Assembly: GCA_030603495.1 (NCBI GenBank)
Contig: JAUVXR010000027.1
Span: forward strand, 1-36,094
DNA from: a bacterium
GTDB lineage: Bacteria > Armatimonadota > Zipacnadia > Zipacnadales > Zipacnadaceae
Length of the DNA stretch: 36,094 bases
Direction: 5' to 3'
Shown here: positions 1-29,692 of the stretch, piece after piece
Numbering within the stretch: the first letter of the stretch is position 1
Layout: each line of letters starts with the position of its first letter
Position numbers and translations under genes: made by a program
The notes under the pieces: model-generated
The model's database searches: none
Told to the model about the DNA's origin: nothing
The model's input: the letters and a program-made list of their open reading frames with translations, nothing else

Positions 1-160
1 TTGACCGCCCTGATAGGTGGTCAGCAGCAGATAAGGACGCGACATCTGAACTAATCTGAAGCTGAAATCCTAAGTCTCTTAACTCCGTTTCTGCGACGAA
101 ACCGTCTGCTGGCAATCATCGAAGGCTTTCTCAACGGTCTCCAATTAGTGGTACCACCTG

Positions 161-462
161 CTATGTTAGTCCCAGGGCCCCTGCAGCCATGGCCGGAAGC
201 TGAGGCGTAGCCGAAGCTGGAGGCCATGGCTGAACTGCCTCCGGAGCCGGTGGTCGATAATTGAGCGCGCTGTGGGGCCTCACTGTGTTGTAATGCCTTC
301 GCCATCGTTCCGTTAATACCTGCACCTCCAGCAAGTGGCGAAAATCTCCACATTCAAAAGATCGTCCCGCAGCTTGCCATTGAACGACTCCAGATACCCA
401 TTCTCCCAGGGGCTGCCCGGCTCGATGTCTAGTGTCTTTACCCCCAGTTCGTCCAGCCAATT
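161..462 (-). pseudogene. IS3-family transposase remnant (C-terminal integrase core), frameshifted
   Basis: Reading the minus strand from about 462, the peptide carries hallmarks of the IS3-family DDE integrase C-terminus: an IEPGSPWENGYLESFN segment containing the catalytic Glu, then RWRRHYNTVRPHSAL and YRPPAPEA. The two halves are in different frames. The shift falls in the codons around 331-337, where one base appears to be missing between IFAT and LLEVQ. The N-terminal half of the transposase, with the first two Asp residues, is absent, so the element cannot be active. The stop is at 161-163. Sequence from there down to about 140 resembles the non-coding tail of such an element, but I could not define terminal inverted repeats or a target duplication. 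The upstream edge coincides with the break in a DUF6785 gene. Confidence 0.85.
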
Positions 463-608
463 GCAGCGGGGGCAAACTGGAGAATGGCGATCTGAATCCG
501 CGTTATGACCAACTCGGCCCAGACCACCACGAAGCAAATTGCCACCGAGCCGAGCACACCAATGATAAGTGCACGTGCCGTGACGCCATTTCCGGTGATT
601 ATTCTCAT
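438..608 (-). pseudogene. Truncated N-terminus of a second DUF6785-type membrane protein
   Basis: An ATG at 608 opens a frame of 56 residues, mostly a hydrophobic segment: TARALIIGVLGSVAICFVVV followed by WAELVI and a second hydrophobic stretch ending APAAIG. The order of the residues (RAL-IG, the long first membrane segment, a polar turn, then FxPAAxG) matches the N-terminus of the intact DUF6785 protein encoded at 5260-7251, which has GRALLLG and STPAAVGL. The frame loses this similarity at about 462, exactly where transposase sequence begins, and stops at 438. It lies 119 bases downstream of the secreted hydrolase gene on the same strand, so it was probably the next operon member before the insertion. 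Identification rests on about 50 residues. Confidence 0.6.
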
Positions 609-727
609 CTACTTCAGACCGGCTACTGATGGGGGAGTCGAGGCCAACACATCCGTTAGCTTCGCGGGGGCCAGCCCGCATACATCTTTGGTGACGCGCA
701 ATAGACGTGCCGAGAAGGAATAGCGGG

Positions 728-2662
728 CTAGTTCTCGACTGGATGCTCTTCGCCGTCGGCCAGGACCGAGACGATGGTATCACACCCACCGGCGGGTAGC
801 GTAAACATTACGGCGCGGCTATTGTTCGATAGCCGTAGGGCCATACCAGACTCCGCCAGGTCTGCACCGACATGCAGGAACTCAGACGCAGTGCATACGG
901 CCTTCAGTTGGATACGAGCATGTATCGGCTCCTCGGTATTGTTCGCCACCATCGTGTATAGCTTGCCGTCCCATTCTATCTGCCGACACTGAATACGCTC
1001 GTCTGAACAGGGGACATCAATGACTTCGCCGTTGACAACGACCGTGCCCAGTTGGAGCGTCTCGACATTGGTGGCCGGAAAGTGCTCCCACAGCGGCGTC
1101 TTGTCCAGCTCCCAACCCGGGTCGCGGAAGGAATACCAGCCGATACCCCTCGCGCCGCCGATGAGCGCCAGATAGACCATCATTCGCGCCTGGGCCACGG
1201 TGGGCTGATTGTCCAGATTTGGGTGCCAGCCGGCCTGAACCGTTGTGTGCATCATCTGCCAAAGCTGCAGAGCAGCAAGGGCCCCTACAGTGAAACTGCG
1301 ACAGTAGTCCATCACCCCGTCGGGCAGCGGATAGTAGTCCACCTCCAGCCAGTCGCAGAAATCGGCCCAGCGCCCGAACTGCGCGGGATTGCAGATGGTG
1401 AGTAGAAAAGGTTTGGTGGAATTAAGTGTCTTTAACCGGACATAGGCTTCCATCACCGGTTCGCGCATGCCCGGGTGGATGCTGGGTTCATCCATAATCT
1501 TCCAGCCCAGCACCGCCGGATGGTCGTTGAAGCGTTTGATCTTCGCCACCGAATGTCGAAGGTTCTCGCGCACCTTCATACCGCCATACAGGCTCATCAT
1601 GACCTTAACACCATGTTCCTGGGCGGTATCCAACATCTCCTGGAGGCTGTCCAGACTGTGGGTGTTTGAGCCCTGCATCACGTTAAACCCAGCCGCGGCC
1701 AGCGCTTCGTAGTGGCTCGTGCTGACGTGGTAGATCTCGATCGGGAAAAACGGCTCACCCTCCACGAGCAGCACACCGTCATTGCGCAGGGACTCGGGTT
1801 GGCGGTTGGCGGAAATTGCCACTAGATTCGCTGTCCCGACTTCTCCGGTGTCGCCGCGCATAATCTCCAGGTTATACAGGTCCGGTGGCAGCGCCGGTAC
1901 GCTCAGCAGTACGCCGACGACGCGGTTGTTAGCGGGGTCCAGGCGTGCCTCGGCTCTTATCGGCGCGGGCAGCCGGTCAGACAAGATGCGAAAAGCCAGG
2001 CGCAGTGGCTCTTCTACGGGCTGACTGAGCTGCACATCGAAGCTCACGGTGTCAGTTTCATCGGCAGTCACAACGAGGTCATTGGGCAGAGCCAGTAGGG
2101 CTGGCCCAGGGGTGACAACGCTGAGTTCAGCATCGTCGAACCAGAGCGTTCCCGGGCCGTACAGACGCACAATAATCACCACGGCGACCACCGTGTCCTG
2201 CGCAGTTGCTGTCCTCTCCACCGCTTGCCACGTCCCGTCGGTTTCAGTTCGCAGGCGCCCATACCACCCACTCACATTTTCGTTCTTTGCATCGTAGAAT
2301 TCCAGCTTCACCGCCGCGGTAGCGCTCTCGCCCTCGGGCGACCGCACCTTCGCCACCAGCCGGTATTCGGTCAGACCACGCAGATTGTCTACCCGCTGTG
2401 CGGCCCAGGGGTTCTCCCCCTCGGCGCCGGAGATGCGCAGGCTGGCCTCGCCACTGTGGCTGACCGTGCGGTCAACAGCGATCTCCTCGGTCTCGGCACT
2501 CGTCTGGAACGACCAGCCTCTGGGGCCCTCTTCGAAGCCGGGATTCGTTATCGCCACCAGCTCGGCAGCAGACACAGCAGGCGCCCACACAGCGCCCAAC
2601 AATACCAAGCCAATCAATATACGGAGAGCAGGCATGCCGGCTGGAGGCAAATCAGCCATCAT
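728..2662 (-). CDS. Secreted glycoside-hydrolase-like protein with N-terminal CBM
   Basis: A protein of 644 residues. A signal peptide covers about residues 1-32 (hydrophobic core ILIGLVLLGAVWAPAVSA). Residues 34-180 look like a CBM4/9-type carbohydrate-binding jelly roll: NPGFEEG start, a GxASLRI strand, and a closing LWFDDAELS strand. A linker beta domain follows. From about residue 295 there is a TIM-barrel region of the GH5/GH42 (clan A) type, with FFPIEIYHVS, a GFNVMQG strand, HGVKVMMSLYG, and GWKIMDEPS, where Glu392 sits at the usual acid/base position. A WYSFRDPGWE segment lies further on, and a small beta domain ends the protein. The start chosen overlaps the polX stop as ATGA, implying translational coupling; an upstream GTG/ATG in the same frame at 2716 is possible but would lengthen the signal-peptide n-region. 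The substrate is unknown; a polysaccharide is inferred. Confidence 0.75.
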   Translation of the reverse strand: MMADLPPAGMPALRILIGLVLLGAVWAPAVSAAELVAITNPGFEEGPRGWSFQTSAETEEIAVDRTVSHSGEASLRISGAEGENPWAAQRVDNLRGLTEYRLVAKVRSPEGESATAAVKLEFYDAKNENVSGWYGRLRTETDGTWQAVERTATAQDTVVAVVIIVRLYGPGTLWFDDAELSVVTPGPALLALPNDLVVTADETDTVSFDVQLSQPVEEPLRLAFRILSDRLPAPIRAEARLDPANNRVVGVLLSVPALPPDLYNLEIMRGDTGEVGTANLVAISANRQPESLRNDGVLLVEGEPFFPIEIYHVSTSHYEALAAAGFNVMQGSNTHSLDSLQEMLDTAQEHGVKVMMSLYGGMKVRENLRHSVAKIKRFNDHPAVLGWKIMDEPSIHPGMREPVMEAYVRLKTLNSTKPFLLTICNPAQFGRWADFCDWLEVDYYPLPDGVMDYCRSFTVGALAALQLWQMMHTTVQAGWHPNLDNQPTVAQARMMVYLALIGGARGIGWYSFRDPGWELDKTPLWEHFPATNVETLQLGTVVVNGEVIDVPCSDERIQCRQIEWDGKLYTMVANNTEEPIHARIQLKAVCTASEFLHVGADLAESGMALRLSNNSRAVMFTLPAGGCDTIVSVLADGEEHPVEN

Positions 2663-25087: not shown

Positions 25088-26299
25088 ATGAGCAAGTGTA
25101 TATTGGCCTACTCGGGGGGGCTGGACACCTCCGTCGCCATCCAATGGATAGCCGAGAACTATGATGTGGAGATAATCGCGCTGGCAGTAGACGTAGGCGA
25201 AGAGAAAAACTACGAGGGGATTCGGCAGAAGGCGATAGACGTAGGAGCGGTAGAGTCGCTGGTCGTTGATGCCAAGCAGGAGTTCTTCGACGATTTCCTC
25301 GCCCGGGCCATTGGTGTCAATTTGATGTACGAACACAGGTATCCAGCCTTTACCGCGCTGGCCCGGCCGCTCCTGGCCAAGACTCAGGTGGAAGTGGCCC
25401 ATCACTACGATGCCGAATTCGTGGCCCACGGTTGCACCGGCAAGGGTAACGACCAGGTGCGCTTCGAGGTCACCTACGCCGCCCTTGACGCGAGCCTGAA
25501 GGTCATCGCCCCCGCGCGCGAATGGGGAATGACGCGGGAAGAGGCGATCGAGTATGCCCAGGAGCGCGGCATCCCCGTACCAGTGGACAAGGAGAGTCCC
25601 TATTCGGTTGACACCAACCTGTGGGGCCGCTCAGTCGAATGTGGGCTGATAGAAGACCCCAGCCGCGAACCGCCCGAGGATGCCTGGGAGTGGACCAAGA
25701 GTATCGCTGACGCACTGGAGGATCCTACCTGCGTTGAGATCGGCTTCGAGCAGGGCGTGCCAGTGACGCTGGATGGGGATAGGATGGCCGGCCCGGAACT
25801 GATCAGCCGGCTCAATACGCTGGGCGGCGAGAACGCTGTCGGACGCATTGATATGCTTGAGAACCGCCTGGTCGGCATCAAGTCGCGGGAGCTGTACGAA
25901 GCGCCGGCGGCGACGATTCTGCTTGCCGCGCACCGCGACATGGAATCAATGACGCTCGACCGGGAGACGATGCACTTCAAGCCCTATCTGGAGCTGCGTT
26001 ACGCCGAGCTGGTCTACTACGGCCTGTGGTACACGCCGCTGCGCGAGGCCATTGACGCATTCATTGCTGAGACGCAGAAGCGGGTCTGCGGCCAGGTGAC
26101 TATAAAACTGCACAAGGGCACCTGCCAGCCCGTAGCTCGCCAGTCGGACCGCTCCTTGTACCAGTACGAGCTCGCCACCTACGCCGAGGGGGATGTCTTC
26201 GACCAGTCGGCCTCCCCCGGCTTCATACACATCTGGGGGCTACCTGCACGCGTCGCCGCAGAGGTAGACCGAGCCACAAAGAAAGAACAAACCAACTAG
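25088..26299 (+). CDS. argG: Argininosuccinate synthase
   Basis: Condenses citrulline and aspartate with ATP in arginine biosynthesis, in the cytoplasm as a tetramer. 403 residues, full length. The N-terminal pyrophosphatase loop is AYSGGLDTSVAIQWI. HGCTGKGNDQVRFE, the citrulline/aspartate-binding segment, and YSVDTNLWGRSVECG are intact, and the C-terminal TIKLHKGTCQPVARQS and YNMDQ-like helix regions follow. The ribosome site AAAGGAG lies 9 bases before ATG 25088. The gene is divergent from groES and is followed after 23 bases by an MFS transporter on the same strand. No other arginine gene is in the window. Confidence 0.97.
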   Translation: MSKCILAYSGGLDTSVAIQWIAENYDVEIIALAVDVGEEKNYEGIRQKAIDVGAVESLVVDAKQEFFDDFLARAIGVNLMYEHRYPAFTALARPLLAKTQVEVAHHYDAEFVAHGCTGKGNDQVRFEVTYAALDASLKVIAPAREWGMTREEAIEYAQERGIPVPVDKESPYSVDTNLWGRSVECGLIEDPSREPPEDAWEWTKSIADALEDPTCVEIGFEQGVPVTLDGDRMAGPELISRLNTLGGENAVGRIDMLENRLVGIKSRELYEAPAATILLAAHRDMESMTLDRETMHFKPYLELRYAELVYYGLWYTPLREAIDAFIAETQKRVCGQVTIKLHKGTCQPVARQSDRSLYQYELATYAEGDVFDQSASPGFIHIWGLPARVAAEVDRATKKEQTN

Positions 26300-26322: not shown

Positions 26323-27543
26323 GTGCCAATTGACCCCGTAGTTCAGCCAACTACTGACGCTGCCAGCCGGAAGCGGCGGCATTTGCTGCTTCTGGTTGGT
26401 ATGTTCTACCTCATCTTTGCCGGTGCCGGGGCCCAGCAGCTTTACCTGGTGCCATATCTGCGCCAGGTTACCTCGTGGACGGGGCTGCGCTGCGCCTTGG
26501 TCCTGGCCGTCGTCTATACCACAATGATGGTCTTTCGGGTGGGCAACGTCTACCTGCTGCGGCGCTGGCCGGACTGGAAGTGGACGATGGCCGGAGCATT
26601 GACCTACTTCCTCTTTCCGGTCGGCATGTTTCTGATGGCCTACCTGCCGAGCTATGCTCTAGCACTGGCCTTCGCGGCGCTTTGGGGCTGGGGAGCTGCA
26701 GCAATGTGGGGCGGCACGACGATGCAGATACTGGCGCTGACCGAAGGTATCCGGAGTCGGCATGGCCTGGGTATAGGTCTGCTGCACGCGGGAAGTCACG
26801 CCGGCTGGTTCAGCGGCGTAATCGTCCTAGGACTGGTCTTCGCCCACGCCAGCGCCCGCCCCGGACTGCTCTATGCTACCGCCGCCGGTATCACGCTGAT
26901 TGCTCTGCTGCCGGCTCTGGCACTGCCCCGGAGTGCCGAGGTCACGATCGCCCCTCCCCACCGGGAAATGCTTTGGGAGATTATCAGCCGCCCCAATGCA
27001 CTCATTGCGATGTTCCTGCTGGGCAGTTCAGCGCTGGCCTCTGGGCTAATGCTGGGGGCGTTTGCCGACTACGTAAGATTGGAGTACGGCGTCGGCTACA
27101 TCTGGCTCACAGCGATGTTCTTCCCCGGGGTGCGCATTGTCCTGGCCTTCCTGAGCGGTGTGCTCTCCGACCTGGGGGGGCGTGCGCCGGTGCTTTCGGT
27201 CAGCTTCCTGCTGGCGGCGGCGGGATGTGCCACGGCGGTCGTCTGGCACAGCCCGGCAGCACTGGCTCTCACTGCCGCTCTCCTGGGGTTACTCAACGGT
27301 GCCGTGCCGGTCGTCAGCGCTTCTCTAGTTGGTGACTCGGCCGAACGCAAGCGCCGGCCGCTGGTATATGGGACCATCTTCACTGCCGCCGACTTCGGTG
27401 GGGTCGTGGGGCTGATTCTAAGCCGCGTTGTAGGCGGCGCGGCGGCGAACCTGGAGACAAGCTTCATCATCTTCGCCGTGCTATTCACAGTTTGCGCAGG
27501 TATATCCGCCCTGCTCCAGCACTATGCCCAACAACGGCTCTAA
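26323..27543 (+). CDS. Major facilitator superfamily transporter
   Basis: A 406-residue protein with 12 hydrophobic segments in two six-helix halves, joined by a charged loop near residue 205-225. The first half has QQLYLVPYLRQVTSWTG, and the loop between helices 2 and 3 (VGNVYLLRRWPDWKW) is a divergent form of the MFS GxxxDRxGRR motif. A clearer version occurs in the second half, GVLSDLGGRAPVL. The protein belongs to a general MFS clade and its substrate cannot be read from sequence. The start is GTG 26323; GGAGAG lies 14 bases upstream, further than ideal, and no better start is seen. It probably shares a message with argG, which leaves citrulline, arginine or an unrelated metabolite as possible cargo. 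Confidence 0.85.
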   Translation: MPIDPVVQPTTDAASRKRRHLLLLVGMFYLIFAGAGAQQLYLVPYLRQVTSWTGLRCALVLAVVYTTMMVFRVGNVYLLRRWPDWKWTMAGALTYFLFPVGMFLMAYLPSYALALAFAALWGWGAAAMWGGTTMQILALTEGIRSRHGLGIGLLHAGSHAGWFSGVIVLGLVFAHASARPGLLYATAAGITLIALLPALALPRSAEVTIAPPHREMLWEIISRPNALIAMFLLGSSALASGLMLGAFADYVRLEYGVGYIWLTAMFFPGVRIVLAFLSGVLSDLGGRAPVLSVSFLLAAAGCATAVVWHSPAALALTAALLGLLNGAVPVVSASLVGDSAERKRRPLVYGTIFTAADFGGVVGLILSRVVGGAAANLETSFIIFAVLFTVCAGISALLQHYAQQRL

Positions 27544-27615: not shown

Positions 27616-28558
27616 TCATCGCATAAAGCTCTCGACCTCCGCGCGGAAGGATGCCCCTTCCATAGGTCCCTGCTTGGTAGCCCCCAACGCGCCGCAGGCG
27701 TTGGCCAGCCGTCCGACTTCTTCGAGCGGCAAGCCTTCGGTAAGGCCAACGACAAACCCGGCGTCAAAGCAGTCGCCCGCGCCCGTGGGATCCACCGCCT
27801 CCACCTCAAATCCGGAGACTGGAATTACACCGTCGGCACTGAATACAGCGCAACCCTCAGCACCGCGCTTGAGGGCGACATACGCGGCACCCCGATCAAG
27901 CAGCGTCTGGCAAGCATCTTCTGGGCCTTCTACGCCGCTGAGAATCTCGGCTTCAGGGCCGCTGGGCAGGATAAGCGACGCCACTTCGACGACAGGCGCA
28001 CATACCTCCCGCAGCGCTTCTTCGCCGCCCAGCAGCTCCGGCCGTAGGTTCGGATCGAAGGAGATCTGCACCCCAGTTTCGTACGCCAATCGTACCGCCT
28101 GGTAACATGCCTCCTGCACTCGCCCTCCGGCCGCCAACGACGACCCAGCGATATGCAGCCAGCGTGCGTTGGCGAAGTAATCAGCGTCGGGCATAGGCAA
28201 CTGCCCGGCCGCGGAGTTGCCCATGTGAAAGATGAACCTGCGACTGCCGTCGGCGAAGTAGGTAACAAAGGCCACGCCTGTAGCGATGCCCTCAACCTGG
28301 GCGATGCGGCTGGTATCCACCCCATCAGCCTCGAACCGATCCAGCAGGCACTTGCCGAAATCGTCCGCGCCTACTGCGCCGATGAACCCGACGCTATGTC
28401 CCAGCCGGGCAACCTGGTCGGCAAAGATAAAAGATAGCGGGCGCACCAATAGGGAAGGGCCCGACGAAATCCGCGGGCTTGTCCAGGGGGCTGTCTACTT
28501 CCTGGCGCATAATCTCGACGAGCAATGCACCAATTGACACCACTTCCGGCGCAGCCAT
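27616..28558 (-). pseudogene. PfkB-family carbohydrate kinase, frameshifted by a 7-bp duplication
   Basis: A ribokinase/PfkB-type sugar kinase in two frames. The N-terminal frame starts at ATG 28558 (GGAGGAGTGA upstream) and reads APEVVSIGALLVEIMRQE, then FVGPFPIGAPAIF. The remaining 270 residues continue in another frame at FADQVARLGHSVGFIGAVGADDFG. They include HIAGSSLA, SFDPNLRPELLGGEEA and AVDPTGAGDCFDAGF, where GAGD is the anion hole and its Asp is the catalytic base. The shift is caused exactly by a tandem copy of TATCTTT; removing one copy restores an uninterrupted protein of about 311 residues, the normal size, reading APAIFADQVARLG. The rest shows no decay. Either the gene is a very young pseudogene, or switched by slippage, or the assembly is wrong here. 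It is the second gene after the phosphatase. Confidence 0.88.
28423..28436 (-). repeat. Perfect 7-bp tandem duplication in the sugar kinase gene
   Basis: AAAGATA occurs twice in direct succession on the plus strand (28423-28429 and 28430-28436), which is TATCTTT twice in the coding strand. It adds 7 bases and shifts the kinase frame after codon 42. Tandem heptamers of this kind arise and revert by slipped-strand mispairing. Confidence 0.9.
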
Positions 28559-28579: not shown

Positions 28580-29692
28580 CTAATCCGCCATCGAGTCATC
28601 CCGCGCCCCATGAGTAACCGTGAATTGATCGAGCGCCTTCAGTTGATCAGTGAGGAAAGTAATTTTCAGTTCGTCTCGACTAACGTCGACGCGCGCAAAG
28701 CCCAGCGAGGAAGCGGCGAACTGACGATACGGATTGGGATTGATTCCGACCGGGTACAAGGGCGCGCCGCCGGTGCCGAGCGTTATGTAGTGCACGCCCC
28801 CGTGCAGCGAACGCTCGTAAAGATGATCGTGCCCCACGAAGACCGCGGCCACCCCGTTATTCTCCAGCAGGGGACACCACTGCTCCTGAATCGTCTGGTT
28901 ACCTCCATGCGGGCCGGACGAGAACGGCGGATGGTGGAAGAATGCAAAACGCCAGTCCACGCCCTCGGGCCTGGGCTGGGCCAGTTGCACGCGTAGCCAC
29001 TCAGTCTGCTCAGCGATACGTCGGCAGCTATCCAAAGCGAAAAACTGGCAGTTGCCGAAGGTGAAGGTGTACCACTCGCTCTGGTAATCGCCTCCGCCAT
29101 TGGGTATGGGCAGCAGTTCGTAGTAAAGCCGCGAGTTGTCCTCGTGATTGCCCAAAGAACCATAAAAGGGCAGATTCCGTGCGAAGGCACCAATTACCGG
29201 GAAGAAATGGTACCACTGCTCCAGGACTTCGCCGCTTCCCACTAAGTCACCGGTGTGCAAGATGAGACGGGGGTTGACGTTCGGCATCGCCGCCACCACC
29301 AAGCGGTGTTTGTCGGGGCGGCTGCGGGTATCGCCGTAGGCGGTGAAGGTCCACTGGGCGAGCCAGGGCACCGGCGTCCTGAGCCGGTGCGGACCAATGC
29401 TGGCCGATTCGTCCCCGGCGCTCGCCTTGACCGTATACCAGTATGTCGTCCCCGCCGATAGCCCCTGCACCCGCACTCGATGGGTGCGGGCCGGTCCACC
29501 TTTGCCGATCTTTTCTCCCTTTATCTCGACCCACGCCACCGAGGGCTCGTTGGTATGCCAGGTGAGCAATACAGAATTGGGAGTCAGATCCCCCAGGGTT
29601 GGACCCATGTCTATCTTAAGCGCAGCAGCATAAGCCGGCGCCAGTATGCATAGCGCTAGCGTGCCCCAGGTTAGACATCTGCCTTTAGTCAT
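28580..29692 (-). CDS. Secreted purple-acid-phosphatase-like metallophosphoesterase
   Basis: A 370-residue protein. Residues 1-24 form a signal peptide. Residues 27-105 make a fibronectin-III-like purple-acid-phosphatase N-terminal domain (GPTLGDLTPNSVLLTWHTNEPS, VRVQGLSAGTTYWYTV). The calcineurin-like catalytic domain follows with all metal motifs: AYGDTR (Asp121), HTGDLVGSG (Asp149), GNHED (Asn182, His183), FFHHPP (His253/254) and GHDHLYER (His288, His290). It should hydrolyse phosphomonoesters or related substrates outside the cytoplasm. ATG 29692 has GAGGGAGA 6 bases upstream. A consensus promoter with a C9 spacer tract lies 50-80 bases upstream. The sugar kinase gene follows 21 bases downstream, so the phosphatase and kinase form an operon. 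Confidence 0.88.
   Translation of the reverse strand: MTKGRCLTWGTLALCILAPAYAAALKIDMGPTLGDLTPNSVLLTWHTNEPSVAWVEIKGEKIGKGGPARTHRVRVQGLSAGTTYWYTVKASAGDESASIGPHRLRTPVPWLAQWTFTAYGDTRSRPDKHRLVVAAMPNVNPRLILHTGDLVGSGEVLEQWYHFFPVIGAFARNLPFYGSLGNHEDNSRLYYELLPIPNGGGDYQSEWYTFTFGNCQFFALDSCRRIAEQTEWLRVQLAQPRPEGVDWRFAFFHHPPFSSGPHGGNQTIQEQWCPLLENNGVAAVFVGHDHLYERSLHGGVHYITLGTGGAPLYPVGINPNPYRQFAASSLGFARVDVSRDELKITFLTDQLKALDQFTVTHGARDDSMAD

Follow-up and report, generated by a model that had tools for sequence, protein, structure and literature searches.

Why does a sugar kinase gene of a Candidatus Zipacnadia genome carry an exact tandem repeat that puts most of its codons out of frame: has the gene recently been lost, can it be switched, or is the repeat an error of assembly? 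As the window we analysed the whole 36,094-base contig (C28) of a draft genome (2.67 Mb, 62 contigs, 93.5% complete). The species is represented by one assembly, and the class, which belongs to Armatimonadota, is known from metagenomes.

A tandem heptamer shifts the frame of a PfkB-family kinase gene

The kinase gene lies on the minus strand at 27616..28558. It starts with an ATG at 28558, behind a good Shine-Dalgarno sequence (GGAGGAGTG), and its stop codon ends at 27616. In a profile search, the C-terminal piece of its product scored 166.5 bits against PF00294 (gathering score 25.8), and the conserved PfkB GAGD motif is present (DPTGAGDCFDAGF). Judged by both profile and motif, the gene is a member of the PfkB carbohydrate kinase family, as the first-pass annotation had assumed. 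Its best NCBIfam match is the tagatose kinase family NF049991 (TagKinase), with 295.3 bits for the intact orthologue of the sister genome G001, which is 81% identical to the window kinase, and 252.9 bits for the window piece, both below the curated cut-off of 420 bits. The G001 orthologue matches this family, as well as PDB 3iq0 (a putative ribokinase II), over its full length. The window kinase thus appears closest to tagatose kinases yet falls under the family cut-off, and because even the intact G001 protein stays below it, we call the kinase tagatose-kinase-like and take its substrate as putative.

Within this gene, AAAGATA occurs twice in exact tandem at 28423-28436 on the plus strand (TATCTTT TATCTTT on the minus strand), a 7-nt insertion relative to all homologues. 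The period-7 match covers these 14 nt, with no extra microhomology flanking the heptamer pair on either side, and the pair lies ∼7.6 kb from the contig end and not at a homopolymer. Kinase codons 1-43, ending in ...GAPAIF, share one frame; the frame shifts after codon 43, and the ∼268 remaining kinase codons are open in another. Translation of the N-terminal frame (28394..28558, minus strand) gives a truncated product of 54 aa, made of 43 native codons and 11 foreign codons before a stop. The remaining open frame (27616..28449, minus strand), read from an in-frame TTG, is 277 aa long and misses the first strand as well as the beginning of the sugar-binding loop; no Shine-Dalgarno sequence was found before this internal TTG at 28449. 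Both the position and the sequence of the repeat, and the inactivating frameshift attributed to it, agree with what had been claimed for the locus.

Piecewise alignment with 28 homologues revealed no other internal indels or stops in the window kinase. The earlier statement that the gene has no other lesion is therefore correct for indels and stops, but two substitutions qualify it. Codon 37 is ATT (Ile; 28448..28450, minus strand) at a position that is Ser in all 28 homologues, and this Ser37→Ile change, which on the coding strand precedes the repeat by 11 nt, is the sole violation among the 57 invariant columns of the alignment. We take codon 37 to be the start of the region corresponding to the PfkB sugar-binding loop. 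The window allele may already be impaired, which is a hint and not proof; several intact homologues have as many or more invariant-column violations. The other substitution, Glu11→Ala, is common to the sister G001.

All relatives carry one heptamer copy

All 28 aligned homologues have one heptamer copy; the window stands alone with its 7-nt insertion, the sole gap at the site. Across the order, a one-copy motif pattern matched in 16 of 41 genomes, whereas a pattern that tolerates 1-30 inserted nt matched only the window genome. Neither the homologues nor this order-wide pattern search thus yielded a relative with a repeat at the site, and one copy is the ancestral state, as had been supposed: it is found in 28 of 28 homologues and in each of the 16 motif-matching genomes.

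A parsimony count with the outgroups G003 and G005 assigns 28 nonsynonymous and 42 synonymous changes to the window branch, against 16 and 26 for that of G001 (Fisher p = 1), and pairwise dN/dS is ∼0.10. These counts give no signal of relaxed selection on the window kinase branch. The window kinase has been under normal purifying selection for nearly all the time since its split from G001. Such constraint until recently means that the duplication is either young, in line with the recency proposed by the first-pass annotation, or an assembly artefact, as the absence of relaxation is expected for a recent inactivation and equally for an assembly error.

A conserved neighbourhood from which the kinase disappears

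The kinase sits among conserved neighbours. An intact gene for a purple-acid-phosphatase-like metallophosphoesterase (28580..29692, minus strand; PF00149), syntenic in G001, G002, G003 and G005, lies 21 nt upstream of the kinase on the same strand, and the two genes probably form an operon. Convergent with the kinase is a conserved MFS transporter gene (26323..27543, plus strand; PF07690), followed outwards by another conserved neighbour, argG (25088..26299, plus strand), whose product we take, from its sequence and family knowledge, to be argininosuccinate synthase. Where contigs allow, argG, the MFS transporter, the kinase and the phosphatase follow one another in this order throughout the genus. 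Individual genomes differ in detail: on G003:C296 (∼1344-2262) the phosphatase gene beside the intact kinase is frameshifted, with a ∼24-codon deletion, and on G001:C132 (2248-4432) two tandem phosphatase copies lie upstream of the kinase, where the window genome has one. Elsewhere in the window, at 51-789 (minus strand), an IS3-type transposase remnant, recognised by eye, is divided between two frames where the contig ends.

The kinase is intact in G001, G003 and G005, and most of the order also keeps an intact copy, so the gene is not generally useless. G002 has exactly one internal gap in the kinase, a 95-nt frameshifting deletion, which could be an artefact in a draft that is 67% complete. 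In the two congeneric species G004 and G006, a protein search found no kinase orthologue. Using the MFS gene as an anchor for the vacated locus, we found that both genomes keep argG, the transporter and the phosphatase, with just 214-224 nt between the transporter and phosphatase matches. What is left of the kinase (G006:C50:137200-137700, L126; G004:C32:10550-11000, L127) is its first 27-29 codons, followed by an identical foreign junction in both genomes. The same junction in both points to a shared, older deletion of ∼0.8 kb, and, being present in two assemblies, makes the remnant secure; in G004, a further 8-nt deletion has occurred in it.

In a tree of the MFS proteins, the window genome pairs with the intact G001 (support 1.0), apart from the other losses, and the window lesion is therefore independent of them. 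By these sequence comparisons, the genus shows at least three independent inactivations, the 7-bp duplication, the 95-nt deletion and the ∼0.8-kb deletion, of which the others are not repeat-based. In draft genomes of other genera, the G036 orthologue is frameshifted by what appears to be an additional base in a run rich in C, and the G040 orthologue by a deletion; these add little, and the lesions in the G002, G036 and G040 drafts may be assembly errors. Further inactivating mutations in all relatives had been named as the mark of a plain pseudogene; of the six congeners, G002, G004 and G006 have them and the other three do not.

Tandem heptamers are common, frame-altering ones are not

A base-composition model predicts 2.2 tandem heptamers per window, and four were found, so the repeat in itself is unremarkable. 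In a 364-kb sample of stretches from the window genome, we counted 24 tandem heptamers, 15 of them in a coding context, and only that at 28423-28436 alters the coding frame. An ORF-gain test for tandem duplications returned 61 candidates, about the control rate, at a threshold that missed the kinase, and a coding-frame test was used instead; two further 5-mer 'frameshifts' from this test were ordinary gene boundaries. A Viterbi frameshift scan recovered the kinase, plus many false positives. Its one convincing other case, on G000:C8 (L097, near 11086), is not a small indel and consists of a long gene that runs out of frame into a uroporphyrinogen-decarboxylase-like C-terminal part. The two genes joined there are unrelated; the join looks like a fusion by deletion or a chimera made in assembly. 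Within the 364 kb, these frame scans, whose sensitivity for small frameshifts is limited, found no other tandem-duplication frameshift.

Loss, artefact, switch or bypass

We consider a recent loss-of-function mutation in a dispensable kinase gene the best explanation, with a probability of about 0.62. The 7-nt tandem duplication would have arisen during replication, in an event of an ordinary kind, and would shift the frame of all codons beyond 43, such that no complete kinase could be made. We infer that the cells really carry the duplication and lack a functional kinase. The three different inactivations in the genus form a pattern of dispensable-gene loss, and the window lesion would be part of this repeated loss by unrelated deletions. 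As expected of a pseudogene formed by a recent frameshift, the lesion is absent from functional orthologues, and the gene is lost or broken in close relatives (G002, G004 and G006). Like other single-lesion bacterial pseudogenes, the locus combines one young lesion with an otherwise constrained, dispensable gene that relatives have repeatedly lost; it differs in that the lesion is an exact 7-bp tandem duplication and not the commoner 1-nt indel. Counting against loss, the kinase is intact in G001, G003, G005 and most of the order, and a single exact lesion in a constrained gene would also fit an assembly error or a cell in the OFF phase. If the former, the cells would carry one heptamer and an intact kinase, and the extra copy would have been introduced by metagenome assembly. 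This is a real but lesser possibility. It fits a draft genome of 62 contigs, the lack of detectable relaxation on the window branch, and the published finding that, among bacterial pseudogenes with a single lesion, many are products of faulty assembly, above all where coverage is low (PMC11017572). The suspicious in-gene junction on G000:C8 belongs to the same genome and points the same way. A 7-bp tandem duplication, however, is not a usual signature of short-read assembly, and this one is exact, far from the contig end and away from homopolymers. An altered invariant residue also lies beside the repeat, the frame scans found no second tandem-duplication frameshift in 364 kb, and congeners are losing the kinase anyway.

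The OFF-phase alternative, put forward by the first-pass annotation, is that the kinase is reversibly turned ON and OFF as slippage takes the heptamer from one copy to two and back. The locus would then be a contingency locus of Ca. Zipacnadia, in which the two-copy heptamer slowly and reversibly switches a cytoplasmic sugar kinase and the population contains both states. In favour of this, the remaining kinase sequence is intact and constrained, and there are precedents: in Listeria monocytogenes, slipped-strand mispairing is reported to reverse a tandem duplication of 7 bp within the prfA coding sequence (Lindback 2011, summarised in PMC8874635), and in Mycobacterium tuberculosis frameshift indels silence genes and later restore them (PMC8339072). 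The prfA duplication, according to that summary, likewise shifts the frame and truncates the protein, but in that case isolates with a single copy were obtained and the repeat recurs in others; here we have one sequence, without revertant or recurrence, and relatives that lose the gene by deletion. Phase variation of the M. tuberculosis glycerol kinase gene glpK, cited in PMC8339072, likewise concerns a carbohydrate kinase that a frameshift silences. The element here is a two-copy heptamer of which no variants were seen. In glpK, by contrast, switching takes place at a homopolymer tract. A cytoplasmic sugar kinase is also not the kind of surface function that is typical of phase variation. With two copies only, no flanking microhomology, a repeat in none of 28 homologues nor in the order-wide pattern search, and congeners that lost the gene by irreversible deletions, the proposed switching is not supported, and we regard it as unlikely; the adjacent Ser37→Ile change, which suggests an allele possibly impaired already, speaks against it as well. 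A repeat that is conserved or varies in copy number among relatives would be expected of a contingency locus, and the insertion occurs in the window genome only. Still less probable is that ribosomes bypass the lesion and make some kinase, by shifting +1 at UUU-U or CUU-U in the duplicated stretch or by restarting at the internal UUG. The 7-nt insertion does call for a +1 shift, and both sequences would allow re-pairing after such a slip, but the shift point has neither a stop nor an obviously slow codon and no homologue has such a site; the internal TTG is without a Shine-Dalgarno sequence, and a product restarted there would miss the first ∼36 residues and with them the first strand and some of the sugar-binding loop.

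Implications

If the kinase has been lost recently, as we favour, loss of one copy could still restore its frame by chance, as with any short tandem duplication, and we see no sign that the site has evolved or is being kept as a switch. If both copy numbers were present in the population, phase variation would act on a metabolic gene of an uncultured lineage, and the locus would be worth following. Within one genus, the kinase locus provides a worked example of gene decay, in which intact copies coexist with a fresh frameshift, a medium deletion and a bare remnant.
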